A stretch of 57,466 nt of DNA from a virus. Under the pieces are notes generated by a model. The model was not told the origin of the DNA, searched no databases, and was given only the letters and a program-made list of their open reading frames with translations. Made by a program: the position numbers and the translations under genes. Below are positions 13,330 through 47,042 of the stretch, piece after piece (the first letter of the stretch is position 1; the number at the start of each line of letters is the position of its first letter). The DNA lies in IMG/VR virus record IMGVR_UViG_3300048026_000121, positions 1 through 57,466 of that record; one strand, 5' to 3'.

Positions 13330-13406
13330 CCACCCTTAGCTCAACTGGATAGAGCAACTGCCTTCTAAGCAGTAGGTTGTAGGTTCGAGTCCTACAGGGT
13401 GGGCCA
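13330..13406 (+). tRNA. tRNA-Arg (anticodon UCU)
   Basis: A full cloverleaf: a 7-bp acceptor stem (CCACCCT with AGGGTGG), D arm GCTC/GAGC, anticodon stem ACTGC/GCAGT with loop CTTCTAA (anticodon TCT at 13364-13366), T arm GTAGG TTCGAGT CCTAC, and an encoded CCA (13404-13406). It reads AGA codons, common in this AT-leaning genome and probably rarer in the host. It sits in the early unit, so it is made with early mRNA. Confidence 0.96.
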
Positions 13407-33502: not shown

Positions 33503-34273
33503 CTATACTGCTAAAGTCTGCCTAAGCTTTGTTGTATCTGCTTTAGTAAACTCTTGGTAATTACCTTTTAAATTTTCTGGGAAATCAATAAACTCTATAC
33601 TTGCACCAGTCTTGTCTGAGACCTCTAGGGCTACATCGTAAAAGCTACGAGGATTGCCTGTGCCAAAATTCCATATACCTGACTCGTCCACATCAAAGAA
33701 TCTTTGCTGATCCATTACGACTTTACCTACATGTATAAAGTCTCTTAAATACTTAGGGGAACCCTTGAAGATCTTTATCTTCCCAGTCTTCTTAGCCTGT
33801 TCCATAAACTTGGCGAAGGGGCTTGCTTGGTTTCCTTTATGTTCCTCGTGGGGACCATGTACGTTGAAGTATCTAAATATTTGAGTAGTGATATCAGCAT
33901 TTCTAAACTCTATATACTTTTCAAACAGTGCCTTACTACGAGCATAGTGGTTCTGAGGATCAACAGGAGATGTCTCCTTGAAGTCTGACTTTAGTCCATA
34001 GACTGAAGCACTAGAAGCAAACTGAAACTTAACATTGTTTTTAATACACTCTTCGTACAACTTAATACTGAACTCTACGTTCTGTCTGTAGATCTTAGAT
34101 ATATTTGTTTCAGTTGTAGAGCTAATAGCACCTAAGTGTATTACCCAGTCCAGTCCCTCTACACCAGGAAAGGACATGCCCCACTCATTCTTTACCACTT
34201 CGTGGTGAGGTGAGAGGGCATTGACCATATTCTGACCAATGAAGCCATTACTCCCAGTGACTAGTATCTTCAT
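33503..34273 (-). CDS. HldD-like ADP-heptose 6-epimerase
   Basis: 256 aa, SDR-type sugar nucleotide epimerase. Rossmann start GSNGFIGQN (about 8-16), the catalytic Ser region FASSASVYG, and YARSK (YxxxK). RYFNVHGPHEEHKGNQAS and FKGSPKYLRDFIHV match ADP-L-glycero-D-manno-heptose 6-epimerases rather than general galactose epimerases. It would flip C6 of the heptose, the last step of ADP-heptose synthesis. Shorter than E. coli HldD (about 310 aa). Overlaps the cupin gene by 4 nt. Confidence 0.85.
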   Translation of the reverse strand: MKILVTGSNGFIGQNMVNALSPHHEVVKNEWGMSFPGVEGLDWVIHLGAISSTTETNISKIYRQNVEFSIKLYEECIKNNVKFQFASSASVYGLKSDFKETSPVDPQNHYARSKALFEKYIEFRNADITTQIFRYFNVHGPHEEHKGNQASPFAKFMEQAKKTGKIKIFKGSPKYLRDFIHVGKVVMDQQRFFDVDESGIWNFGTGNPRSFYDVALEVSDKTGASIEFIDFPENLKGNYQEFTKADTTKLRQTLAV

Positions 34274-34626
34274 GCCTGACTGTCACCTTTTGCTACTCTG
34301 TAATTATCTTCTACAGAATCAGGAGTAGAGACCTCTAGGATTGTTCCCTCTTCTAAGCAAATGATTTGATGAGGTACAAGAGTCGGGTTCGTCCAGGCAT
34401 CGCCCTCACCCAAGGACTCAACGTGTGTGGTGGCGTCTTCTGTGTCGATCCAAAGAACCTCAAACTTGCCAGATAGAACGTACCAACTTTCCTTCTTATC
34501 TTTGTGGAAGTGCATAGAGAATTTAGCACCAGTATTAAAAGATAAAAACTTACTACAATACTCGTCATTTGTTACCCATATAAGTTCAGAACCCCAGCCC
34601 TTCTTAACGAAGCCTTCAAGTCGCAT
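34270..34626 (-). CDS. Cupin, sugar isomerase-like
   Basis: 118 aa single cupin barrel. MHFHKDKKESWYVLSGKFEV carries the metal-binding His-x-His and Glu, and VPHQIICLEEGTILEVSTP the second His motif, as in the cupin half of type II mannose-6-phosphate isomerases and small sugar-phosphate cupins. It lies between the kinase and epimerase genes, overlapping both (11 and 4 nt). It could isomerise or epimerise a heptose intermediate; substrate unknown. Confidence 0.8.
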   Translation of the reverse strand: MRLEGFVKKGWGSELIWVTNDEYCSKFLSFNTGAKFSMHFHKDKKESWYVLSGKFEVLWIDTEDATTHVESLGEGDAWTNPTLVPHQIICLEEGTILEVSTPDSVEDNYRVAKGDSQA

Positions 34627-35374
34627 GTTGTGTTACCTCTGCTAGTGTAGGAGCATATACTCCTCTGTGTTGGACAGTTATGGCTGCTGCATCCATTGCA
34701 AACTTTATAGCCTTGTCTATATCATAAGTATCTAGATAGTTGAATACAAGACCTGCAAGGAATGTATCTCCTGCACCACACACATCATGAGTTTCTACAC
34801 TAGGGGGTAGGTAAGTTCTGTTCTTATACTCGACTTTCTTTGAGCCGTATGTGACGATCAGATCGTCTGTTAGTGTTTCTGCTGCCTCCAGTTCATACTG
34901 GTTTATCTTTACGAAGCAGCCATCAAACTGAGCTAAGTTGGTCTTCTTAGTATCTACAAAGATAGGGCCGTTATACTTAGCTCTGAAATCTTTTATGTCA
35001 CCTTCGGCTACAAACCCTTTGTTGTAGTCTGAGATAACAACAGCATCATACATACTTACGTCTTCGTCTGCTGTATCTATGTGCTCAGTCTTAATCTTTT
35101 CATCTACTCTGATCAGTTGCTGACCAGTCTTATCTTCAATGTACCTGTGCTTACGCTCTCTGTACTCTGTTATGATGTCTACCCTAGTCCCTAGGTTCAC
35201 TAAGTTGTTGTAGACGTTATAGGCCATGCCTCTTTTGATTACAGAAGATACAAGATCAAAGACAGGGACAGGAGCCTCTGGGCTTATTCTTGATACAGTG
35301 CCTGTGTGATATTCATCATAGCAACTGTCGCCTAGTAATAAAATCTTCGATTGTTTTTGTGGTAGACTGCCCAT
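34616..35374 (-). CDS. HldE-type heptose-7-phosphate kinase
   Basis: 252 aa PfkB/ribokinase-family enzyme. KILLLGDSCYDEYHTG (about 10-25), RISPEAPVPVFDL (HldE hallmark, about 30-42), GQQLIRVDEKI, and the anion-hole motif CGAGDTFLAGL (about 204-214). Adds phosphate at C1 of heptose 7-phosphate. Shorter than the E. coli kinase domain (about 315 aa). Its 5' end overlaps the nucleotidyltransferase gene by 59 nt in a different frame, so the essential first strand is dual-coded. Confidence 0.9.
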   Translation of the reverse strand: MGSLPQKQSKILLLGDSCYDEYHTGTVSRISPEAPVPVFDLVSSVIKRGMAYNVYNNLVNLGTRVDIITEYRERKHRYIEDKTGQQLIRVDEKIKTEHIDTADEDVSMYDAVVISDYNKGFVAEGDIKDFRAKYNGPIFVDTKKTNLAQFDGCFVKINQYELEAAETLTDDLIVTYGSKKVEYKNRTYLPPSVETHDVCGAGDTFLAGLVFNYLDTYDIDKAIKFAMDAAAITVQHRGVYAPTLAEVTQHAT

Positions 35375-35726
35375 TGGTTCTCTCGTAGAATACTATTTCT
35401 TTGCAGTACTCCTCCCCAAGTATTGTCTTCCCTTTCCAATCAGATCCTTTTACCATTACATCAGGCTGATAAGCTTTTATAATACCTACCAAGTCCTCGT
35501 CTGTATCAAATACTCTGACACTATTGACAGGCTTCAACATAGACATTATATGTTTACGTATTGACAAAGTATTGAAAGGTCTCCCAGTACCCTTGTTATA
35601 CTCAATACGACTGTCTGTGTCAATAGCTACTAACAAATGACCACCTAACATCCCTGCAAAATCAAGGAGATCTAGGTGCCCAGAGTGCAGTACATCAAAT
35701 GCACCATTAACAAAAACTTTCTTCAT
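35316..35726 (-). CDS. HldE-type heptose-1-phosphate adenylyltransferase
   Basis: 136 aa nucleotidyltransferase. VNGAFDVLHSGHLDLLDFA has the HxGH active-site motif. VAIDTDSRI, then PDVMVKGSDWKGKTILG, and QSTTKTIEDFITRR match the C-terminal domain of HldE. Joins heptose 1-phosphate to AMP. In E. coli the kinase precedes this domain in one chain; here they are two overlapping genes in the opposite order. It starts 17 nt from the divergent phosphatase gene. Confidence 0.9.
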   Translation of the reverse strand: MKKVFVNGAFDVLHSGHLDLLDFAGMLGGHLLVAIDTDSRIEYNKGTGRPFNTLSIRKHIMSMLKPVNSVRVFDTDEDLVGIIKAYQPDVMVKGSDWKGKTILGEEYCKEIVFYERTNGQSTTKTIEDFITRRQLL

Positions 35727-35743
35727 GAGGTAAAGATCCTAAT

Positions 35744-36391
35744 ATGTCCAGATTTAAACATATTATTTCACAAGAACCAAGTCAACAACCTCAACAAGAG
35801 TTACCGCCAGATTGGCCTACAGTCTTCCCTAAGTCTATTGTAGGTCTAGATCGTGATGGTGTTATCAACGTAGACAAAGGACACTACATTACAGATCCTG
35901 AAGACTTTGAGGTGTACCCTGAGTCCTTAGCAGCTATCCACAAGTTACGTATCAAAGGATACAAAGTGGTAATATTAACTAACCAGGGTGGTATTACCAA
36001 GGGACTACAAACACATGAGCAGGTAGAAGCTGTACACCAACGTATGTTTGAAATGTTTGGACAAGCAGGTATCTACACTATTGATGGTCTCTTCTACTCT
36101 GAGTCTTCATTAAAAGAAGACATGTATGCCAAACCTAATCTAGGTATGTTTCACAGAGCAGAGAAAGAAATCTTTGGTGGAAAGACTAGGTTCAAAGACA
36201 AAGGTTTCTATGTGGGCGATAAGATGTCTGACCTTAAAGCTGCTGAGAGAATTGGTGCCACCCCAATCTTAGTAAGAACTGGTCATGGGGTGGACACTGA
36301 AGGAGAGCTAAAGAAGTTCTCAAAAGAGAAGTTAAGAAAGAAGACTAAGGTTTTCGATAACCTCCTCCAATTTGTGGATAGGCTACCTTAG
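35744..36391 (+). CDS. GmhB-like heptose-bisphosphate phosphatase (inverted gene)
   Basis: 215 aa HAD phosphatase. IVGLDRDGVINVDKGHYITD (about 32-51) with the Asp nucleophile, VVILTNQGGITKG, KPNLGMF and YVGDKMSDLKAAERIG are the GmhB/histidinol-phosphatase set. It would remove the C7 phosphate of heptose bisphosphate. The four-residue Cys/His zinc site of E. coli GmhB is absent: FYSESSLKEDMYAKP stands in its place. It is the only sizeable rightward gene in the leftward late unit. It has just 17 nt ahead of it and overlaps the carbamoyltransferase 3' end by 4 nt. Confidence 0.85.
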   Translation: MSRFKHIISQEPSQQPQQELPPDWPTVFPKSIVGLDRDGVINVDKGHYITDPEDFEVYPESLAAIHKLRIKGYKVVILTNQGGITKGLQTHEQVEAVHQRMFEMFGQAGIYTIDGLFYSESSLKEDMYAKPNLGMFHRAEKEIFGGKTRFKDKGFYVGDKMSDLKAAERIGATPILVRTGHGVDTEGELKKFSKEKLRKKTKVFDNLLQFVDRLP

Positions 36392-38103
36392 GCAGCCTTT
36401 TCCTCTACTTCTTCAACTACTGAGTCATTGTAAGGATACTTCACCAACAGACCTTGTTCTGGTAGGTACAAGTAATTTATGTCTGAGTTCTTAATAGTTC
36501 TCATTGCATCGTCTAGTGTTTCTACCAGTGGCTCACCTGCTAAGTTAAAGCTGGTGTTGAACAAAATAGGTACACCAGTAATCTTACGGAACTCATCAAT
36601 CAAAGTGTGATACGTTCCATTCTGCTCTTTAGTCACAGTCTGAATACGGCAAGTACCGTCTACGTGTGTGATAGCTGGGCACTCTCCATGCTTCTCTAAC
36701 TTGAAGTCCATTGCATACATCATGAATGGTGACTCTTCCATACCGTAGGTATCAAACCATTCCTCAAAGTGTTCCTGCATCATAGAACCTGCAAAGGGTC
36801 TAAACCACTCACGTCCTTTGACCTTGTTCACAGTGTCCTTGCCATCAGGGTCTGTGGGATCGTACAGGATAGAACGATTCCCTAGTGCACGAGGTCCAGC
36901 CTCAGAACGTCCTTGGTACAAAGCTACAATATTCTTCTCAGAGATAAGCTTTGCTACATCAGCAGGTTTTACTTCCTCAGTTTCAATGTCGCCAAAGTCA
37001 TAAGACTCTTCACGTTCAGGACCAAGATACAAAGTGTCTAGTGGACGAATAGTTTTGTCTTTTGTTTCTGTGTAGTGCACTAGCTGTGCTAGACCGATTG
37101 CTGTACCACCATCATGAGAGATAGGATCAACATAAATGTTAAGGTCAGGGAAACGTTTCTTGTAGTAGTAGTTTGCTACGCAGTTAAGACCATAACCACC
37201 TGCAATGACGATGTTCTTTTTACCAGTCATTGATACAGCTTTTTCAATCAAGTCACCTACAAGAGTTTGTGTTTCGTCTTGTACTGCCCAAGCTAAATTC
37301 TTAGCTGCATCTGTAACTTTACTAGGATCGTTATGCCAAGCACGAGGATCTTCAGTCAAGGTTAAGTAGGGGTGGCGAGTATGATCAATATGAGCACCAG
37401 CAGGATAGTTAGGGACAAAAACATTCTTGTTACCTCTACCATTAAAGAACAGGCTGGGGATCATCTCATCATACGTACCGTATGGTGCAAGACCCATTGT
37501 CTTACCTGCTTCAATAAAACCAAAGCCTAGGTATTCTGATACAGCTTCGTATCCTTTAACAAGTGTGATGGCATTGTCCATTTCAATGTTTTCAGAAGTA
37601 ATTCTTTGGGTATCATAGTTACCACCAAAGGCTTGGAATACAGGTTTAATACCTTCTTCGTAGTCACAGTTAAAGATAGTCTCTGTCTCAAACCCTGGGT
37701 TCTTTTGACCCTCTTCATTTATTTGGACCTCTTGACGTGTACCAGATCCGTCTACAATAACAGCAGCAGCATCTTCAAAACCTGAGTTGTAGAAAGCTGC
37801 AGAAGCATGTCCAAGGTGGTGGATATGTCCTAAGTTGATTACTTGTACGTTTGGATAAAACTTACGAACAAGACCAGAATAAGGATCTTCACCAGTCCAA
37901 GGTAGTTGTGGGAACTGTGAATGTGTTCCACCTAAAACAATGACATCAATCCCATAGTGAATTGCTTCAAGGATACCTTTGTATGGGTTGCCATCATATT
38001 TACTACGAGACAGACGTTCTTCTTCAATGTAGAACTTAATCTCACCATCTACTAACAAAGCAGCAGAACCATTATGACCTGGGTTAATTGCTAGGATATT
38101 CAT
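36388..38103 (-). CDS. NodU/CmcH-family carbamoyltransferase
   Basis: 571 aa, full length. The N-terminal half binds the metal and carbamoyladenylate with NPGHNGSAALLVDG (about 7-20), EEERLSRSKYD and HHLGHASAAFYNSGF with the key histidines. The C-terminal YrdC-like half has GRSEAGPRALGNRSIL (about 399-414) and FNTSFNLAGEP. Transfers a carbamoyl group from carbamoyl phosphate to a hydroxyl, usually of a sugar. Next to a heptosyltransferase and heptose genes, a carbamoyl-heptose is the likely product. Confidence 0.93.
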   Translation of the reverse strand: MNILAINPGHNGSAALLVDGEIKFYIEEERLSRSKYDGNPYKGILEAIHYGIDVIVLGGTHSQFPQLPWTGEDPYSGLVRKFYPNVQVINLGHIHHLGHASAAFYNSGFEDAAAVIVDGSGTRQEVQINEEGQKNPGFETETIFNCDYEEGIKPVFQAFGGNYDTQRITSENIEMDNAITLVKGYEAVSEYLGFGFIEAGKTMGLAPYGTYDEMIPSLFFNGRGNKNVFVPNYPAGAHIDHTRHPYLTLTEDPRAWHNDPSKVTDAAKNLAWAVQDETQTLVGDLIEKAVSMTGKKNIVIAGGYGLNCVANYYYKKRFPDLNIYVDPISHDGGTAIGLAQLVHYTETKDKTIRPLDTLYLGPEREESYDFGDIETEEVKPADVAKLISEKNIVALYQGRSEAGPRALGNRSILYDPTDPDGKDTVNKVKGREWFRPFAGSMMQEHFEEWFDTYGMEESPFMMYAMDFKLEKHGECPAITHVDGTCRIQTVTKEQNGTYHTLIDEFRKITGVPILFNTSFNLAGEPLVETLDDAMRTIKNSDINYLYLPEQGLLVKYPYNDSVVEEVEEKAA

Positions 38104-38104
38104 T

Positions 38105-39031
38105 TTACTTCACCTTCTTTTCGATATCTTTTACGATGTCAGCATAAATACTGTTTATCTCTTCGTCTGTAAACTCAACAGTTACTTCATTAACTCTATC
38201 TGCTAAGTGTGACTCAAGACCTGAAATACGTATAGGTGAGTAAACTTTAGGAACAGCCCTTTCAATTATATTAAAGTAATTTGGGTATGTAGTATTTATA
38301 GGGAAAGTAGATCCTATAATTACTGAACCAGGTTTATTAAGTGCCCTTGCCATATGCTGACCTACAGAATCACAACCTACAAAGTAATCTGCTGCATCAA
38401 TAAAGGATGACCACATACGAAGGTCTGCTTCAGGCTTCATGGTGTATGTGTCTTCAGGCATCCAGAAGTTTTTTTCAGCAAACAAAACCAGATTGTATTT
38501 CGTTGCTAGTTTCTTTACTAGTTTAAGATACGTATCTGGATTAATAGAACGAGAAGATTGATCTAGTAAAACACCTTCCTGTGGTTTCTCAATGGATCTA
38601 CCAAAAGGTTGTATGACAATAGTCTTTTGCTTTTGTTGTTGCTGTCTTACTTGCTGCATAAAGTTAGCAGCATTCAATTCCTCTTGTCTATTTGTTTTAA
38701 GGACAGGAGCACCAAGATCAGAGTGGTCATCAGTCTCATTGATCAAGTAATCAAAAGCTTCAGCAAGAGACTTCTCTTGTTTATAGTAGCCTGGAACTCT
38801 GTATGGTTCTGGAGAGATTACTCTGTCAGCATCCATAAAGAATTGATCCATTGATCCCTTTTGGTCTGGGTTAAATACTTTATCATGTAGCTCAGGGATA
38901 CCCCAGTACAAAGAGTCCCAACCCATGACCATAACTCTAAAGTCTTTATCTTTTTTAGAGTACTTGATAAGAGCAGGAATAGCTGCTATAGCTCTACCTG
39001 CACCACCATCAATCATAAAAACAGTTTTCAT
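38105..39031 (-). CDS. GT9 heptosyltransferase-like glycosyltransferase
   Basis: 308 aa, similar to WaaC/WaaF length. N-terminal Rossmann half (MIDGGAGRAIAAIPALIKYS). The C-terminal nucleotide-binding part has KTIVIQPFGRSIEK, SINPDTYLKLVKKLATKYNL and FVGCDSVGQHMARALNKPGS, matching the GT9 block (usually VGxDxGxxHLAxALxxP). Would transfer heptose from ADP-heptose to an acceptor: host LPS core or a virion protein. AAAGAAGAAG precedes the ATG. It lies between the Cys-rich tail gene and the carbamoyltransferase. Confidence 0.82.
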   Translation of the reverse strand: MKTVFMIDGGAGRAIAAIPALIKYSKKDKDFRVMVMGWDSLYWGIPELHDKVFNPDQKGSMDQFFMDADRVISPEPYRVPGYYKQEKSLAEAFDYLINETDDHSDLGAPVLKTNRQEELNAANFMQQVRQQQQKQKTIVIQPFGRSIEKPQEGVLLDQSSRSINPDTYLKLVKKLATKYNLVLFAEKNFWMPEDTYTMKPEADLRMWSSFIDAADYFVGCDSVGQHMARALNKPGSVIIGSTFPINTTYPNYFNIIERAVPKVYSPIRISGLESHLADRVNEVTVEFTDEEINSIYADIVKDIEKKVK

Positions 39032-39058: not shown

Positions 39059-39077
39059 CAGGGCCATTATAGCCCTG
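39059..39077. terminator. Hairpin between Cys-rich and GT9 genes
   Basis: CAGGGC (39059-39064) and GCCCTG (39072-39077) form a 6-bp GC stem with a 7-nt loop. No U-run follows on the leftward transcript, so it may attenuate or protect mRNA between tail and sugar genes rather than stop transcription fully. Confidence 0.5.
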
Positions 39078-39103: not shown

Positions 39104-42100
39104 TTAACAAGAACAAATAATTCCTTCATTATACAACCTTAAAGCACCTTCGTAGTAGCCTTCTCCAGCATTTAACTTGTGAGGAGCTTTAGCATTAAGG
39201 GCAGAAGGTGAATTGTATGAAGGTGCTGAAAAATTATTATTAATTCTCAAGTAACATGCATATCTTTTTGTTGCATCTCTATGTAAATGGCAAGGTTTGA
39301 TACAGCAGAATATCATGTTAGAATGACATGCAATACCTTGTCTGTAAGGATTACAACATGTTAATCTGTAATGACAACGAACACATTCATGATCATAGAA
39401 TTGATATAGCTGAGTACACAGACCAGTACCACTAAAAAGACCTCCACAAAGACAAGTACAATGGTACATACCTATGGTTTGATTCATCATGTATGTTCTG
39501 GTTATATTGAACATACAGCAGCATTGCATGGTAGCCCCACCTGAAATAGCATGTGGGCAGAAACAACCTCCATAACACAATCTACAGAATCCTGGGAAGA
39601 ACATATAGTTTGAATCACCAAAACCAAATGTACAAGCATTAAACTGCATTCTGCAAGCTGCACTTGCTGAGAATGGGTGATAGGCTAAAGATCCTAACCA
39701 TCTTATATTCCAAAAGTTCTTCATGATTTCGGATGTATTCCAACCAATACATTCTAGAGGAACATTGAATGGTGCTTTCATTCTTCCTGTTTCTGGGATA
39801 ACTTGCATAATACAGCCATTACATCCACCATATAGAGAAGCACAAGCACCTGTACACAGACACCCAAAGTACTTACTACTACCTATACAGCAGCATTTTG
39901 CTGGCATAATACCACAGTGATTAAAGCAACAAACCCCACCCATAATGAACTGGACGCCACCTACGTCACTTGAATGATCCGACCCATATGTTGTAAAGTC
40001 TAATCCGATTGTTCGGCAGTTTGTACAACCGATGCAAGCTCCAACAACCCCTTCAAACTGTAAACAGTGTCTTAGGCAACAGCAGAGTGTTGGGTCAACA
40101 AACTTACAGTTTACACACTTATCAGTTGAAGGCCAGAGTTGATTAACCTTACTAACACAGCAATTAGTTAAGTCAAAGCATATGGCTCCAAGCCACATAA
40201 AGGTACTTCCAAAGGTGAAACATGTACACGTACCACAGGCAAGAATACCACCTATAAAGACTAGATGATCAGTGCAACAGTTGTAGTACCAGTTTGGTCT
40301 ACAGAAGTTTCCTGTACCAACCAAGTTTAAGTTTGTACCGTTACACCCCCCAAAAGTACCCCAAGTAAAGTGGAAATCGTGTCCTTGGCAATGAGCCAAA
40401 AGACTTGTAGCACAACACCCAGTTATTGCTTGAATACAAGCTGCTACAGTACACTTTGGGCAAGCATCATTGTTACCAAGCCAGAGCCTACCTGCAATGT
40501 CACAAGGAGTACAACCACAATTACACAAATGCATTGGGCTTGAAATATACCATTTAGCCATATGTCTTCTGGCATCTTGAGACTGAATCATTGCGTAGAA
40601 GTTGATACTACACTCAATTTGACAAGTTGATTTATTAAATACTGTATAGACAGGTGTATTTCTACTTGCTTGATCACAATAGCTAGTGTGGGAGTTATAG
40701 TCTCCATTACCAAACATGAGAAGTCTGTTAGCACAAGTAGGGTGTTGTATGATATCACCATGAGTAGTTGGGTCCATCATTGGAACACCACCTGGGCATG
40801 TGTAAACAGAAATCTTACCAGTATCATAAAGAGCACAACGAGTTCTGTCTCTATTTCTACCAACACTACCCTGGGAAGTGAACCCCATCATGCAGAATAT
40901 TCTTTCTGTAGTTGGGTAACAGTTTGTTAGGAATACACACCCTTTGCAACACATCCAAGGCATCATGCACTTAGGTTGAATTGGTGACCAGTACTGGAAA
41001 GATTTATGAGGTCTGCAGAATTTAGTAATAATTAAAGTACAATGTGTTTCAAATCTACATGAACAACCACTACATTGGAAAGCACATGCAGGGGAGTATG
41101 CACAAAGACATGGGAAACACAGCCAGTCAAACATCCATAAAACATCACCATCACAGTCCCAATGCTTCATACCTGAGTTATACCCACCTGCTGTACCTCC
41201 AGGCACACACAACGCAGTTTGACCTGTGCAGGATGCTGGGTAAAGAGTAAGCCACATATTAGGGCAGCAACGAGGATCAAATGATTTTATACATATACCA
41301 TCACAACTTTTTGGGCATTTTGCAGTGTACATGCCTTTATTCCAAATACTAGGAGGACCACTAATGTCAGTCCTACTAGTAAACCAAGGCATCAGACAAC
41401 CTGCTACTCCACCTGTTCCATAACAAATAGACCCAAGACCATCTACTTTTAGGTTTAAACAATTATAACATGGCTTATAACAAGTATTTTGCCAATGGAA
41501 TGGGTAAGGATTTATAGGTCTACCACTATGAGTAAAGAAAGCATAATCACAAACCTCCTCTTCAGGTCCACCTAAAGCTGAGTTTGTACATGCTAGATAA
41601 ATTAAAGGGGGTGCTAAGTAAGGGTGTGCACCAGCAGAAGAACCTGGTGCAGACAGTGGCATTGAGATCATTGGCCCCAAACAAGAAGTTGCCTCAAAGT
41701 AAGAAGGAGCAAAGAAAGGTCCAATATCAATACCTTGTGTACAAGTACAACAGCAAAATGCTGCTATTTGACCTGTTTTACTGTAAACACCACCCTTTTT
41801 AGTGATGACTGCTTCTTCCCAGTCTTGTCTGTGTTCATAACAAGCTACTGCGTATTGTTTTTGTTGGTGCTTTGTATAAATACTACCATCAATCATTGGC
41901 TGATATGTTCCACAAAGTGCGTGGCAAGGCCATAGATTGTTATTTTCGTAACCAAGCAGACAAGGTATATTTCTACATCTACAGCCCCAAGGTTTAACCC
42001 AAGTGTATGCACAGCCCTGCCCTAGACCACAGCACGTACAAACAACAACTTCACCAGTGGTATACTTTACTTCTCCAGGTACATCAGGTCTCCATGCTCC

Positions 42101-42532
42101 AATACAACTGTTAAGGCTGCATCTCCAATTCGTATAGGTGCCAGTAATGTAGAATGGCATTCTCATTCCTGGAGAGGCGTAAAGGTTATTATTTAGAGTT
42201 TGATCATATGGGCATCTAGCAGTTTCATCACACTTACAGAAATTTGATCTGACCGTCATATACATTGTAGAGTAGTAGTCGTTAGAGAACTCATCTGTCT
42301 CTAGCCCACCACCACCAACTGAAGCCCATTCAGTACCGTTGTACGAGATAAGAGAACCTAGGTCTGTATCAAAATAGATAGACCCAGTAGCAGGAGAACC
42401 AGGTCTCTGGGCTGTCGTCCCACTAGGGGCATCCATACGTGAACTAGCTGTAATACAACACGAGGTAACACAACAGGCACAGACGTTCCTGCTGTTATCG
42501 ACCACCGTAGTGCCATTAATCTTATATGCCAT
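39104..42532 (-). CDS. Giant cysteine-rich tail-associated protein
   Basis: 1142 aa, GGAG site 8 nt from the ATG. Residues about 1-75 are a tail-attachment-like module (GTTAQRPGSPATGSIYFDTD, LISYNGTEW) shared with the adjacent 71-aa protein. The remaining ~1060 residues contain about 120 of the 126 cysteines I count (11% overall), as CC, CCC, CxC and CxxC, among many Gly, Trp, Tyr, Met and Phe and few charges. No family is recognised. The last ~60 residues (HRDATKRYACYLRINNNFSA onward) are cysteine-poorer. It lies after the S74 fibre, so a distal receptor-binding or decoration protein is most likely. Possibilities include a disulphide-knit or metal-binding adhesin. Confidence 0.85.
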   Translation of the reverse strand: MAYKINGTTVVDNSRNVCACCVTSCCITASSRMDAPSGTTAQRPGSPATGSIYFDTDLGSLISYNGTEWASVGGGGLETDEFSNDYYSTMYMTVRSNFCKCDETARCPYDQTLNNNLYASPGMRMPFYITGTYTNWRCSLNSCIGAWRPDVPGEVKYTTGEVVVCTCCGLGQGCAYTWVKPWGCRCRNIPCLLGYENNNLWPCHALCGTYQPMIDGSIYTKHQQKQYAVACYEHRQDWEEAVITKKGGVYSKTGQIAAFCCCTCTQGIDIGPFFAPSYFEATSCLGPMISMPLSAPGSSAGAHPYLAPPLIYLACTNSALGGPEEEVCDYAFFTHSGRPINPYPFHWQNTCYKPCYNCLNLKVDGLGSICYGTGGVAGCLMPWFTSRTDISGPPSIWNKGMYTAKCPKSCDGICIKSFDPRCCPNMWLTLYPASCTGQTALCVPGGTAGGYNSGMKHWDCDGDVLWMFDWLCFPCLCAYSPACAFQCSGCSCRFETHCTLIITKFCRPHKSFQYWSPIQPKCMMPWMCCKGCVFLTNCYPTTERIFCMMGFTSQGSVGRNRDRTRCALYDTGKISVYTCPGGVPMMDPTTHGDIIQHPTCANRLLMFGNGDYNSHTSYCDQASRNTPVYTVFNKSTCQIECSINFYAMIQSQDARRHMAKWYISSPMHLCNCGCTPCDIAGRLWLGNNDACPKCTVAACIQAITGCCATSLLAHCQGHDFHFTWGTFGGCNGTNLNLVGTGNFCRPNWYYNCCTDHLVFIGGILACGTCTCFTFGSTFMWLGAICFDLTNCCVSKVNQLWPSTDKCVNCKFVDPTLCCCLRHCLQFEGVVGACIGCTNCRTIGLDFTTYGSDHSSDVGGVQFIMGGVCCFNHCGIMPAKCCCIGSSKYFGCLCTGACASLYGGCNGCIMQVIPETGRMKAPFNVPLECIGWNTSEIMKNFWNIRWLGSLAYHPFSASAACRMQFNACTFGFGDSNYMFFPGFCRLCYGGCFCPHAISGGATMQCCCMFNITRTYMMNQTIGMYHCTCLCGGLFSGTGLCTQLYQFYDHECVRCHYRLTCCNPYRQGIACHSNMIFCCIKPCHLHRDATKRYACYLRINNNFSAPSYNSPSALNAKAPHKLNAGEGYYEGALRLYNEGIICSC

Positions 42533-42562: not shown

Positions 42563-42778
42563 TCAAACCCATTCGGTTCCGTTGTAAGAAACTACTGTGC
42601 CTAAATCTGTATCAAAAAAGATATGACCTGTATTTGGTGAACCAGGTCTCTGTGCTGTTGTACCAGAAGGTATAGTGAGGACGTTAGCTGATACTATCGT
42701 CCCCTGTACTGAAGGTGTTCCTGAAGGAATGTTTTTACTGTCGTCAATAACAGTTGTGCCACTAACCTTTAGAGCCAT
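42563..42778 (-). CDS. 71-aa tail module protein
   Basis: 71 aa: MALKVSGTTVIDDSKNIPSG, then GTTAQRPGSPNTGHIFFDTD and VVSYNGTEWV. It is a stand-alone copy of the N-terminal module of the Cys-rich protein downstream, without cysteines. The start lies inside the S74 fibre 3' end (17-nt overlap). Similar GTTAQRPGSP modules are common in marine phage tail fibres. Possibly a linker or capping protein, or a remnant of a duplicated fibre. Confidence 0.75.
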   Translation of the reverse strand: MALKVSGTTVIDDSKNIPSGTPSVQGTIVSANVLTIPSGTTAQRPGSPNTGHIFFDTDLGTVVSYNGTEWV

Positions 42779-45700
42779 TCTCTAGTTCCTCTACTTTACC
42801 TTGTAGACACTTCACAGTTTCAATGAGTGCACCTACCAAGCCATTATAGTTGACTGATTTGTAACCATCGTCATCTGTTATAACAAGTTCTGGGAATGCT
42901 TCTTCTACTTCTTGAGCAACAACACCCATTGTGTATTTACCAGAATCTTTCCAGCTATAGTTTACACCTCTGATCTGACCGATCTTGCAGTAAGCATCTT
43001 CTACTGTAACAATGTTGTCCTTGCATCTGCAATCAGAAGTAGAGTTGAAGTCAACAGCACAAGCTACGTTAGTTCTAACGGCAGATACACCACAAACAAT
43101 GTTAGCCTTTACACAACACTCTACACAGTGGCAGTTCTCTGTTCTTGCACCGTAGGAGGTAGTACATAACATAGCTGTGTTATTAAAGAGCAAGCACACG
43201 CCACTATTACATGTACCTTTCCACATCCATTCGTTAGTAACATCATTATAGATACCAACAGAATCAGCATTGCCCATGAATACCCATTTGTCTTCAATGG
43301 AGTACCCAGGCCAGTTACCATCACCACCTACAACAGAGATAGAGCCGTAGGTACCTCCTGATTGACAGATACATCTGCCACCTACTGCAAGCCAAGTACC
43401 ACCACAGATAATTGGGGATAGTACACAGGTAGTACCACATACTTTAGGAGCTTTAACACAACAAGAAGCACAGGAACATGTAACAAATGAATAGGGGGAT
43501 TTAAAGCAATTAGCAGCACAGATACATGCACCATTAAAGTTGTTAGATGTAGAGCCATTCGTTGCAGCTTTACCTGACAAACATGTTGCTAGTCCATCAA
43601 CGTTAGCTACTGTGTGGTTGTGGCTATCGTCTGCAATAGTAAGGCTAAGGTTAGCATTACCAAGGTTTGTGAATGTAGCAGAACCTGTAGCATCTCCACA
43701 GATACAAAGTGTAGGATCAGAAGTAGCAGTCGTATTGACTGTGAAGTTACCTGAACCATCTACTGAAGTAGAACCTGTTACTGCACCACAGACACACAGT
43801 GTTCTAGCAGTAGCCCAAGCACTTGCTGTGTCAGCATTACCAGTAACAGCACCTGTGACAGGAGCACATACTCTGGCAAATGTTACTGTATCAGATGTGC
43901 CTACTGCTTGTCCAATGTTAATTCCATTACCATCAACAGTAACACCTGTACCTGCATCAGCAGTAAAAGTTGTACCAGTTAAGGTAAGACCATTACCTGC
44001 ATCGTAAACAGCAGTCTCAGCTACGACAGTAAAGGTAATGTTTGTTGTACCGAATGTTATAACACCAGATGTGTTCATAACATAAAGTTCACCAGAACCA
44101 GTGTTACCTTCTTTTACGAAGAATGCATCACCTTCACCTAGTGCATCTTGGTCTGAAGCACCATAGCTGTCAGCATCTGTAGCACGAGTAAGAACCCAGT
44201 TAGTCGAAGCTGAACCAGTGTTGGTAACTGTGTAGACACCATTCTCGTAGCCATTGGTTTGGCTGTAGATAAGAACACGATCATTTGTGTTTAGTGTTAC
44301 ACCATCAATAACTAGGGCAGCTTGTGCCCCATTGTTAGTAAGGGTAGCACCTACACCATTCGTACCATTGTCGTAGGTAGCACTTAGGTTACCTGCACTG
44401 TCTGGTGATTCAACTCGTACTGGATCGTGATAGTGAATACCAGCAGCAGCAATCGTATCAACGTACTCTTTAGTTGCAAGTTGACAAGCCTGAGTTGGGT
44501 TACCTGTAACACAGACAGATCCAAAGCATACATTGTCTGATGTGCCAACAGCCTGTCCAATAGCTATTGCACCAGATGTGTAAGTAACACCTGTACCACC
44601 TGATAGGTGGCTGTCTACTCTAGCTGTTGTAAAGTACTGGTTTGTACCTTCCGCTAGGTCATCTGTGTCATGGTTACTTATATCACTTACAGTACCAGTG
44701 ACATCACCATTAACATTTCCTGTCAGTGTTCCATATAGGCTAGAGACACAAACAGCACCTGTACCGTAGATGCAGTTAGTACCTGCATTAAGATTGCCAC
44801 CAAGAGCAGGAGAAGAATCCCCTGCAACACATGTAAGAGCATCACCTAGTGTGAATGCTGCAGAAGACCATGCCGAACCATCATACACTCTTAGAGCATT
44901 GTCGGTGGTGTTCCAGTATAATGCACCAGTAATAAGTCCATCACCATCGTTGTCTACTGATGGGTCTGAAGCTTTATCACCAAGGTATCTGTCATCAAAG
45001 TCATCATAAGAAGTAGCTGCATTTGTTGCTGAAGTAGCAGCAGCAGTAGCTGAGTTAGAAGCATTTGTTTCCGATGTAGCTGCAGCAGTTGCACTATTAG
45101 CAGCACAAGTAGCTGAAGTGGCTGCATCTGTAGCTGACTGGAGAATACCATCAACATAAGTCTTCGTAGTCAAATCAGCAGCATCAGTAGGTGTATAAGT
45201 CGTAGTGATCTTATTGGCACCCATATCAATAGTGCCAGTTACAGTACCACCAGAACAAGCTAGTCTTGTATCACGTTGAGTATCTGTGTATGTCTTTGTG
45301 GCTGCATCTTGTGCTAGGGTAGGATCGCCCAGTCCTGTGATCTTTGATGTACCCATAGCAATAGCACCCGACATGGTTCCACCAGTCAGATTTAGCTTTA
45401 GAGCATCTTGATCATCTACATAACCCTTACGAGTAAGAGTATCAGCAGTAGCAGGTGTAGCTGTAGATGTAGCTTTATTAGAACCTAATGCAATGTCACC
45501 AGTCATTGTGCCACCAGCCAATGGTAGCTTACCTGCAATGCTTGTTGTTATTGTTGTACTAAAGTCTGGGTCATCCCCAATAGCTGCAGCAATCTCGTTA
45601 AGAGTATCTAGTGTGCCTGGTGCAGAGTCAATCAAATTAGAAACAGAGGTATCTACATACCCCTTCGTTGCAGCATCTGCATCAGCAGTTGGAGTTGCAA

Positions 45701-47042
45701 GAGAAGTAATTTTTGCAGAACCCATATCAAGTCCTGCTGTACCTGTCATGTTAATATCACAGAAAGTAGAAGTACCTACTGAGGTTACATCACCAGTTAG
45801 ATCACCTGTTACGTTCCCTGTAACTGCACCTGACACATCACCTGTGACATCCCCAACAAAACAAGTGTTAGCTGTAATGGTTGTACCAGTTATAGCATCA
45901 GGCGTGGTAGCACCAACTACACCATCAAAGTTTCCTGTGTGACAACCTACTGCATTACCAGTTAGGTTGCCTGTTACATTACCTGAAACAGCACCAGTAA
46001 CATCACCTACGAAGCAAGTGTTAGCTGTAACTGTTGTACCTGTTATAGCACCTGCTGTAGTCCCACCAATAGTAGCACCGTCAATAGTGCCCCCATTGAT
46101 ATCGACTGAAGAAAAAGTACCCTGTCCTGTCGTACTAACTGTAGTAAAGCTACCTGCAGCAGCACTAGAAGCACCGATAACAGTGCCATCAATATTACCT
46201 GCATTGATATCTACTGTGGCTAGAGTTGCTGTACCTGTGGCAGAAAGGTCTGGTACAGTTACTGTATCACCAAAACCTGCAACACCTGTAACACCAAGTG
46301 TACCTGCCAGTGTAGTATTTCCTGTAATTCCTGCAGTTCCACCAACAGTAAGGTTACCACTAGAGCCAAGAGTTGTAAATTCACCAGAGGCAGCAGTCGT
46401 ATTACCAATTATAGTACCATCAATAGTACCACCATTAATGTCTGCTGTGTCAGCTACAAGGCTGTCAATATTTGCTGTTCCAGTAATGTAAGCATCATTC
46501 CACTCACTACCTGTAGCACCTAGATCATATGTTGCATCTGCAGAAGGGATAAGGTCTGAGGCAACATCAGCATTTACTGTAACAGTATCACTATCGTCAC
46601 TACCAAGAGTAGTATTCCCATTAACGGTAAGGTTACCCGTAATAGTAGCATTCTCGTGAATCGCCAGAGTGTCGATATAACCCACACCATCAATGTAAAG
46701 ATCTTTAAACTCAGCAGCCGAAGAACCCAAATCAATATCTTCATCAGTGACAGGAACAATAGCTCCATCTTGTATCCTTACCTGCTCTACTGCTGCATTA
46801 CCAACGTTAGTAAAGAAATTAATTCTGTTGTTAGCTGTATCAACAACAACTTTACTATACTGGTTAGTGTCTGAAATTAGAGGAATGAGGCCACCTTCTC
46901 CAGTAGAAGTGCCATCATGTCTGTGACCTGTGCTTGCACTAAATGCTGCTACAAGCTGTTCAAATTCATTGTGTACTGGTTCAGCTTTAATAACCTGACC
47001 AGAAACAATATCAGCAGCACTTTGTCTTGTATAACCTGCCAT
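42762..47042 (-). CDS. Tail fibre with S74 self-cleaving chaperone
   Basis: 1426 aa. The N-terminus (MAGYTRQSAADIVSGQVIKA; SASTGHRHDGTST) is a virion-attachment domain common in marine podovirus fibres. A long beta-repeat shaft follows (TVTGDVSG/GNLTGN-type units). The C-terminal ~95 residues are an intramolecular chaperone/peptidase S74 domain (SDCRCKDNI, YSWKDSGKYTMGVVAQEVEE), which trimerises the fibre and then cuts itself off. Unusually, cysteines appear within canonical repeats (ANTCFVGDVTG twice, ARTLCVCGAVTG, PTLCICGDATG) and cluster heavily before S74 (CSCASCCVKAPKVCGTTCV). Probably binds the host receptor. Confidence 0.92.
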   Translation of the reverse strand: MAGYTRQSAADIVSGQVIKAEPVHNEFEQLVAAFSASTGHRHDGTSTGEGGLIPLISDTNQYSKVVVDTANNRINFFTNVGNAAVEQVRIQDGAIVPVTDEDIDLGSSAAEFKDLYIDGVGYIDTLAIHENATITGNLTVNGNTTLGSDDSDTVTVNADVASDLIPSADATYDLGATGSEWNDAYITGTANIDSLVADTADINGGTIDGTIIGNTTAASGEFTTLGSSGNLTVGGTAGITGNTTLAGTLGVTGVAGFGDTVTVPDLSATGTATLATVDINAGNIDGTVIGASSAAAGSFTTVSTTGQGTFSSVDINGGTIDGATIGGTTAGAITGTTVTANTCFVGDVTGAVSGNVTGNLTGNAVGCHTGNFDGVVGATTPDAITGTTITANTCFVGDVTGDVSGAVTGNVTGDLTGDVTSVGTSTFCDINMTGTAGLDMGSAKITSLATPTADADAATKGYVDTSVSNLIDSAPGTLDTLNEIAAAIGDDPDFSTTITTSIAGKLPLAGGTMTGDIALGSNKATSTATPATADTLTRKGYVDDQDALKLNLTGGTMSGAIAMGTSKITGLGDPTLAQDAATKTYTDTQRDTRLACSGGTVTGTIDMGANKITTTYTPTDAADLTTKTYVDGILQSATDAATSATCAANSATAAATSETNASNSATAAATSATNAATSYDDFDDRYLGDKASDPSVDNDGDGLITGALYWNTTDNALRVYDGSAWSSAAFTLGDALTCVAGDSSPALGGNLNAGTNCIYGTGAVCVSSLYGTLTGNVNGDVTGTVSDISNHDTDDLAEGTNQYFTTARVDSHLSGGTGVTYTSGAIAIGQAVGTSDNVCFGSVCVTGNPTQACQLATKEYVDTIAAAGIHYHDPVRVESPDSAGNLSATYDNGTNGVGATLTNNGAQAALVIDGVTLNTNDRVLIYSQTNGYENGVYTVTNTGSASTNWVLTRATDADSYGASDQDALGEGDAFFVKEGNTGSGELYVMNTSGVITFGTTNITFTVVAETAVYDAGNGLTLTGTTFTADAGTGVTVDGNGINIGQAVGTSDTVTFARVCAPVTGAVTGNADTASAWATARTLCVCGAVTGSTSVDGSGNFTVNTTATSDPTLCICGDATGSATFTNLGNANLSLTIADDSHNHTVANVDGLATCLSGKAATNGSTSNNFNGACICAANCFKSPYSFVTCSCASCCVKAPKVCGTTCVLSPIICGGTWLAVGGRCICQSGGTYGSISVVGGDGNWPGYSIEDKWVFMGNADSVGIYNDVTNEWMWKGTCNSGVCLLFNNTAMLCTTSYGARTENCHCVECCVKANIVCGVSAVRTNVACAVDFNSTSDCRCKDNIVTVEDAYCKIGQIRGVNYSWKDSGKYTMGVVAQEVEEAFPELVITDDDGYKSVNYNGLVGALIETVKCLQGKVEELENGSKG

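Follow-up and report, generated by a model that had tools for sequence, protein, structure and literature searches.

A sugar cassette beside a cysteine-rich fiber gene

The window, by which we mean the whole 57,466-nucleotide stretch of IMG/VR virus record IMGVR_UViG_3300048026_000121, carries a cassette of seven sugar-enzyme genes next to the gene of a tail-fiber-like protein with 126 cysteines, and we ask here what the cassette may make and what the product may be attached to. An earlier note on this DNA had read the seven genes as an ADP-heptose pathway with a heptosyltransferase and a carbamoyltransferase. Hidden Markov model searches, together with structure prediction for the GT9 protein, agree with all seven assignments (HldE-type kinase and nucleotidyltransferase, GmhB, HldD, cupin, NodU/TobZ and GT9), and the seven open reading frames (ORFs) are intact at the coordinates given below. 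The note had placed the genes on the late strand, which is correct for the rest of the cassette (minus strand) and wrong for the phosphatase gene (plus strand). It had also proposed the virion tail as a possible acceptor of the sugar; our results support this, chiefly through a link to the most unusual neighbor, the cysteine-rich protein of 1,142 amino acids (aa) at 39104–42532, which the note had left out. The genes are as follows, with the basis of each assignment in brackets.

33503–34273, minus strand: HldD-like ADP-heptose 6-epimerase, 256 aa (TIGR02197; YxxxK and the equivalent of K178)
34270–34626, minus strand: cupin with an HxHxxKxE motif, 118 aa (PF07883, PF01050)
34616–35374, minus strand: compact heptose 7-phosphate kinase resembling the N-terminal (PfkB) domain of HldE, 252 aa (TIGR02198, motifs, profile match to HldA)
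35316–35726, minus strand: nucleotidyltransferase resembling the C-terminal domain of HldE, with HSGH and RTNGQSTT motifs, 136 aa (TIGR02199, TIGR01518, profile matches in the PDB)
35744–36391, plus strand, opposite to the rest of the cassette: GmhB-like HAD-IIIA phosphatase, 215 aa (NF006506; no cysteine)
36388–38103, minus strand: NodU/TobZ-type O-carbamoyltransferase, 571 aa (PF16861, PF02543, phrog_1601)
38105–39031, minus strand: GT9-fold glycosyltransferase, putative heptosyltransferase, 308 aa (AlphaFold and structure comparison)
39104–42532, minus strand: distal tail-fiber-like protein, 1,142 aa with 126 cysteines (11.0%), the proposed acceptor (composition, conservation)
42563–42778, minus strand: 71-aa ORF repeating the fiber anchor sequence (SGTTAQRPGSP...FDTDLG...SYNGTEW)
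42762–47042, minus strand: tail fiber, 1,426 aa (N-terminal half homologous to the CRP-13 fiber, C-terminal region similar to phage tail families)

The cysteine-rich gene lies 72 nucleotides upstream of the GT9 gene. A GC-rich hairpin at 39059–39077, between the stop of the former and the start of the latter, is a possible processing or attenuation site.

Cysteine-rich genes accompany the GT9–carbamoyltransferase pair

GT9 relatives are found in hundreds of viral contigs. Three scans of IMG/VR gave about 190 viral loci, 175 of them distinct for the counting of cysteine-rich genes, which we defined as genes for proteins of 150 aa or more in which cysteine makes up 7% or more of the residues. 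The window's own group shows one gene order in dozens of contigs (fiber, cysteine-rich gene, GT9, carbamoyltransferase, inverted GmhB, nucleotidyltransferase, kinase, cupin and epimerase), within which two blocks can be discerned: the GT9–carbamoyltransferase pair, the two genes of which are paired in almost all relatives, and the nucleotidyltransferase–kinase–cupin–epimerase block. A cysteine-rich gene was present in 44 of the 49 loci having GT9, carbamoyltransferase and kinase, in 23 of the 46 having the pair and no detected kinase, and in 1 of the 67 having the kinase but neither member of the pair. The association of cysteine-rich genes with GT9–carbamoyltransferase loci, tested against all other loci, gave a P value of 1.4e-19 (Fisher test, uncorrected for descent), and 99 of 101 cysteine-rich genes were located one to six genes upstream of GT9. 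The sole kinase-only locus with such a gene, L149, has a 160-aa ORF that is probably spurious. Cysteine density in a sliding window was tried as a threshold and rejected as too noisy, kinase-only loci also reaching 7–11%.

Complete or near-complete genomes give the same picture: every cysteine-rich gene of P-SSM2 (two among 170, PSSM2_304 and PSSM2_306) and of S-CAM1 (three among 114, with an antisense ORF in addition) is located at the cassette. Across whole genomes, no such genes were found in S-SM2, P-TIM68 and S-T4, whose heptose genes come without the pair, nor in Roseobacter phage CRP-9 and in CRP-13, both also without it. Searching from the other side, we found BLAST relatives of two cyanophage cysteine-rich queries in 21 of 50,697 phage records, and GT9 also in 20 of those 21; the remaining record is one contig of a single-cell virus, and the GT9 gene of that virus lies on a different contig.

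The link extends to distant phages. In Vibrio phages SBP1 and D505 and Aeromonas phage HJ05, a distant GT9 homologue adjoins the most cysteine-dense gene of the stretch, with no carbamoyltransferase or heptose genes annotated in the stretches read. Vibrio and Aeromonas hosts make ADP-heptose for their own lipopolysaccharide (LPS). At L362, L363 and L364 (N4-like Vibrio phages and Aeromonas phage HJ05), the GT9 homologue is inside a block of tail or structural genes.

The cysteines behave as polar residues

In the window's group, an N-terminal anchor of about 80 aa of the cysteine-rich protein is conserved and the remainder is hypervariable, a pattern that recalls receptor-binding proteins. Pfam and PHROG searches with 45 cysteine-rich proteins gave mostly unknown families, with a few tail-fiber, virion-structural and glycine-rich matches. 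Our literature search found nothing on cysteine-rich tail fibers, nor on heptose with a carbamoyltransferase in cyanophages.

Within 16 clusters of cysteine-rich proteins, cysteine is among the best conserved residues, and where it varies, Q, D, N, Y and E take its place. The correlation of its substitution row with hydropathy was negative (rho −0.59), in comparison with +0.80 for BLOSUM62 and +0.85 for the cysteines of cassette enzymes from the same viruses, which were the two comparators used. Of 103 cysteine-rich proteins, 47 have an odd number of cysteines; CxxC spacing is not enriched in this set, and adjacent CC pairs are mildly so (1.36-fold). Neither a CxxC arrangement of the zinc-finger type nor a strict pairing into disulfides is supported. 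The cysteines appear from their exchanges to act as exposed polar positions, which fits a hydrophilic modification but is also compatible with exposed thiols or with disulfide bonds in surface loops.

A predicted GT9 fold with an altered active site

The GT9 protein has no Pfam match, PF01075 included, and only a weak one in NCBIfam (5e-5); its cyanophage homologues reach E values of 0.01–0.1 against PF01075. As its sequence profile found no matches in the PDB, the fold was assigned through structure prediction. The AlphaFold model (predicted local distance difference test, pLDDT, 95.4) is most similar to a Veillonella GT9 protein (3tov, Z-score 23.8), followed by WaaF (22.1), TibC (21.2) and WaaC (19.9); three GT9-like chains of plant NDH-PSI complexes score 19–20, and unrelated GT-B folds about 12 or less. 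On this model we regard the GT9-type fold as firm.

The active site is another matter. Arg13, invariant in 46 of 46 phage GT9 homologues, aligns with the Asp that follows the first strand of WaaF in hhalign, which gave a usable alignment to WaaF and not to WaaC. The candidate catalytic Asp of WaaC and WaaF is Asp13. The window protein contains a single cysteine (0.3%). The candidate catalytic base of TibC is Asp110 (PMC4358343).

The assignment of its partner is straightforward: the carbamoyltransferase passes the cut-offs of both PF16861 (207 bits) and PF02543 (70.8 bits) and matches phrog_1601 at 513 bits.

Enzymes for a proposed activated heptose

The kinase scores 120 bits against TIGR02198 (curated equivalog cut-off 345 bits), retains the RISPEAPVPV, NxxE (NQYE) and GAGD motifs in sequence and alignment, and matches the HldA structure 4e84 in a profile search with an E value of 7e-28. 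Its gene overlaps by 59 nucleotides the separate gene of the nucleotidyltransferase, which scores 96.4 bits against TIGR02199 (cut-off 181.5) and 65 bits against TIGR01518. The HxGH motif is present in every nucleotidyltransferase homologue listed, as HSGH or HPGH and in one case HEGH. On the nucleotide base, A or C, the sequence evidence points both ways: the higher score is against TIGR02199, the HldE adenylyltransferase model, and solved cytidylyltransferases are the best PDB matches of the profile, with an RTxGxSTT motif resembling that of TagD.

The epimerase has a shortened N-terminal half and scores 222 bits against TIGR02197 (cut-off 274.6), with an E value of 1.7e-41 against the HldD structure 1eq2. 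In Escherichia coli HldD the catalytic residues are Y140 of the Tyr-x3-Lys motif and K178 of the HKG motif; the alignment shows the catalytic Tyr-x3-Lys and the HKG-motif Lys to be kept in the window protein, and Y110, K114 and K146 are invariant. The phosphatase reaches 126.9 bits against NF006506 (cut-off 178 bits). E. coli GmhB carries a cysteine-rich zinc site, and the window phosphatase, at 0% cysteine, is therefore without a site of that type. Its gene is inverted relative to the other cassette genes throughout the window's own group and missing at locus L058.

The cupin exceeds the cut-off of PF07883 (33 bits), and its profile matches lyxose and ribose (ketol-)isomerases among other cupins. 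Oxalate decarboxylase-type cupins score slightly above lyxose isomerase, leaving the identity ambiguous by sequence. It is a near-constant companion of the kinase in viral loci and, as a probable metal-binding protein, is a candidate for the ketose–aldose isomerization of sedoheptulose 7-phosphate that GmhA would otherwise perform. The earlier note had reported GmhA to be missing, and indeed TIGR00441 finds none in the window, nor in any of 50 phage records made up of the window and 49 others, complete cyanophage genomes included. The "phosphoheptose isomerase" annotated in cyanophages was rejected as a GmhA: it is a mini-HAD protein of 106–118 aa (DIDGTIC...TARG...FIDDK) rather than a SIS isomerase, and more likely a phosphatase replacing GmhB. 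Examples are PSSM2_311 of P-SSM2 (L002:11312-11656), L003:9159-9482 and their homologues. PSSM2_312, annotated as "cysteine dioxygenase," is the cassette cupin.

The virus and a probable host family without the pathway

The DNA polymerase of the window is 86% identical to that of CRP-9 and 69–70% identical to that of CRP-13, and its capsid and terminase are 94% identical to the CRP-9 proteins. Judged by these identities, the virus is a CRP-9-type roseopodovirus, a marine podovirus; because polymerase, capsid and terminase are all so similar to those of this Roseobacter phage, its host is probably a Rhodobacteraceae bacterium. The sugar cassette is absent from CRP-9 and CRP-13, the isolated members of the group, and is flanked in the window by fiber genes on one side and by a 1,184-aa gene common to CRP-9 on the other. 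Recombination of modules occurs in this phage group (PMC8528129). The window also has one tRNA gene, tRNA-Arg (UCU), at 13330–13406.

The inferred host family was represented by 199 genomes from the family of a Rhodobacteraceae metagenome-assembled genome (MAG). In these, HldE (threshold 1e-60) and GT9 were each found in 0 of 199, and GmhA above its cut-off likewise in 0 of 199, with weak GmhA-like matches in five. An HldD-like match occurred in one genome, a MAG that includes the phage-like contig L208 as well. A host of this family should therefore lack heptose, and the supply of heptose 7-phosphate by the host, which the earlier note had offered as one solution to the missing GmhA, finds no support. 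In a cyanobacterial family (that of G244), 7 of 151 genomes have HldE and 29 of 151 have GmhA-like matches. L208, L205 and L212, assigned to Rhodobacteraceae, Euryarchaeota and Prochlorococcus genomes, respectively, bear cassette genes of the phage type and resemble phage DNA that was mis-binned or co-sorted.

A possible glycosylation module for the virion fiber

With moderate confidence, we favor the explanation that the locus is a virion-fiber glycosylation module attaching heptose, or carbamoyl-heptose, to the cysteine-rich adhesin. The cupin, as an aldose–ketose isomerase replacing GmhA, would act on sedoheptulose 7-phosphate of the host, and with the kinase, phosphatase, nucleotidyltransferase and epimerase it would make a nucleotide-activated heptose inside a cell without a heptose pathway of its own. 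The GT9 enzyme would transfer the sugar to the cysteine-rich distal fiber protein, whose gene lies directly upstream, and carbamoylation by the NodU/TobZ-type enzyme would come before or after the transfer. The virus might benefit from a change in receptor binding or from the shielding of an exposed adhesin. That GT9 stands beside cysteine-rich tail-fiber genes in several unrelated phages suggests that the phage's own fiber, and not the bacterium, is sugar-coated, and the heptosylation of adhesin serines by TibC provides a precedent. If true, the phage would build, by a pathway that its host lacks, a glycan on the protein that probably recognizes that host.

Several observations weigh against this explanation. 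The kinase, nucleotidyltransferase, epimerase and phosphatase, though scoring far above chance, all fall short of the curated equivalog cut-offs. Where known heptosyltransferases have their candidate catalytic Asp, the GT9 protein has Arg, which makes its activity and acceptor chemistry uncertain. The AlphaFold model of the cysteine-rich protein (pLDDT 27) is unusable. Locus L058 has the enzymes and no cysteine-rich gene, and none is seen in 23 of the 46 pair loci without a detected kinase, where many contigs are short. Because the loci share ancestry, the Fisher P value overstates their independence.

The sugar itself may be a different one. GT9 could use a nucleotide sugar other than ADP-heptose, such as a CDP-linked or differently configured 7-phospho-sugar, as the affinity of the nucleotidyltransferase to solved cytidylyltransferases and TagD, the lack of GmhA from every phage record tested, the cysteine-free GmhB and the sub-cut-off scores would all allow. 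We nevertheless think this rather unlikely, as kinase, epimerase and nucleotidyltransferase score highest against heptose-specific models, the HldD-specific residues are kept and the transferase is predicted to have a heptosyltransferase fold.

The cassette could alternatively modify LPS or another envelope glycan on the host surface late in infection, preventing progeny from sticking to debris or excluding competitors. The cyanophage relatives have been annotated and discussed as LPS genes (PMC3037559, PMC2984593), and the heptose genes without the GT9 pair in S-SM2, P-TIM68, S-T4 and Sf-CH8 sit in larger clusters with other glycosyltransferases. Against that, no heptose inner core is expected in a host family without the heptose pathway or GT9, and it is the GT9–carbamoyltransferase pair, not the kinase-only clusters, that lies in the fiber block beside cysteine-rich genes; we consider a surface target unlikely. 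Still less probable is that fiber and enzymes merely travel together as an exchangeable tail module without acting on each other, the cysteines forming disulfides or binding metal: the conservation of cysteine within clusters, the mild excess of CC pairs and the recombination of modules in the group (PMC8528129) would agree with it, but the odd cysteine numbers, the lack of CxxC enrichment, the replacement of cysteine by Q, D, N and E instead of A, V and S, and the recurrence of the association in unrelated phages, including the Vibrio and Aeromonas phages where only GT9 was seen, speak against it.

A bolder form of the fiber-glycosylation explanation, which we advance tentatively and consider doubtful, is that GT9 S-glycosylates up to about 100 exposed cysteines of the hypervariable adhesin with carbamoyl-heptose, so that the receptor-binding protein would be densely covered in sugar. 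Cysteine as the acceptor would account for the loss of the catalytic Asp, the odd cysteine counts and the evolution of the cysteines like polar surface residues; the Asp might be dispensable because a thiol needs less activation by a base, although this is a hint only. The S-linkage is possible but unproven. If true, heptosyltransferases would gain a new class of acceptor, perhaps cysteine.

Comparison with known systems

The fold and the enzyme families are those of LPS core synthesis (WaaC/WaaF with HldE, HldD and GmhB). The window set differs from that system in the absence of GmhA, the shortened kinase, the replacement of the catalytic Asp by Arg, the phage fiber block as gene context and an inferred host family without the pathway.

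Closer in the proposed target are the BAHT adhesin heptosyltransferases (TibC/AAH), which have a GT9-like fold in common with the window enzyme (Z 21). TibC heptosylates serines of the adhesins TibA and AIDA-I (PMC4358343), and it does so without a carbamoyltransferase. With its single cysteine, the window GT9 protein cannot have the four-cysteine iron finger, and it has Arg at the position of Asp110; by the two features tested, it is not a BAHT.

The closest counterpart is the "LPS gene" cassette (T4-GC 302–308) of the T4-like cyanophages P-SSM2, S-CAM1, S-CAM3, S-SSM7 and Sf-FS3. Its gene order is near-identical to that of the window, with GT9-like gene, carbamoyltransferase, nucleotidyltransferase, kinase, cupin and epimerase in common and proteins 34–50% identical, and it likewise lies among tail and neck genes with cysteine-rich proteins upstream. 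The carriers differ, being T4-like phages instead of a CRP-9-type podovirus, as do two genes: in place of the cyanophage mini-HAD phosphatase, the window has a full GmhB-like gene, which runs on the opposite strand, and its epimerase gene shares the strand of the remaining cassette genes, unlike in the cyanophages. In the cyanophages, genes for 2OG-Fe(II) oxygenase/prolyl-4-hydroxylase-like proteins are interspersed with the cassette (L009:7929-17210 in Sf-FS3; L002:12795-13292), as if the same protein were further modified, and the S-SSM7 region (L010) also holds a tryptophan halogenase gene. The enzyme set is thus not new; it has been filed as "LPS genes" and never assigned a function. In their 2010 comparison, Sullivan and colleagues left the functionality of these genes open and asked whether they could be packaging filler (PMC3037559). 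For these genes, known since the early cyanophage genomes, the link to cysteine-rich proteins offers a testable purpose and names a candidate acceptor.

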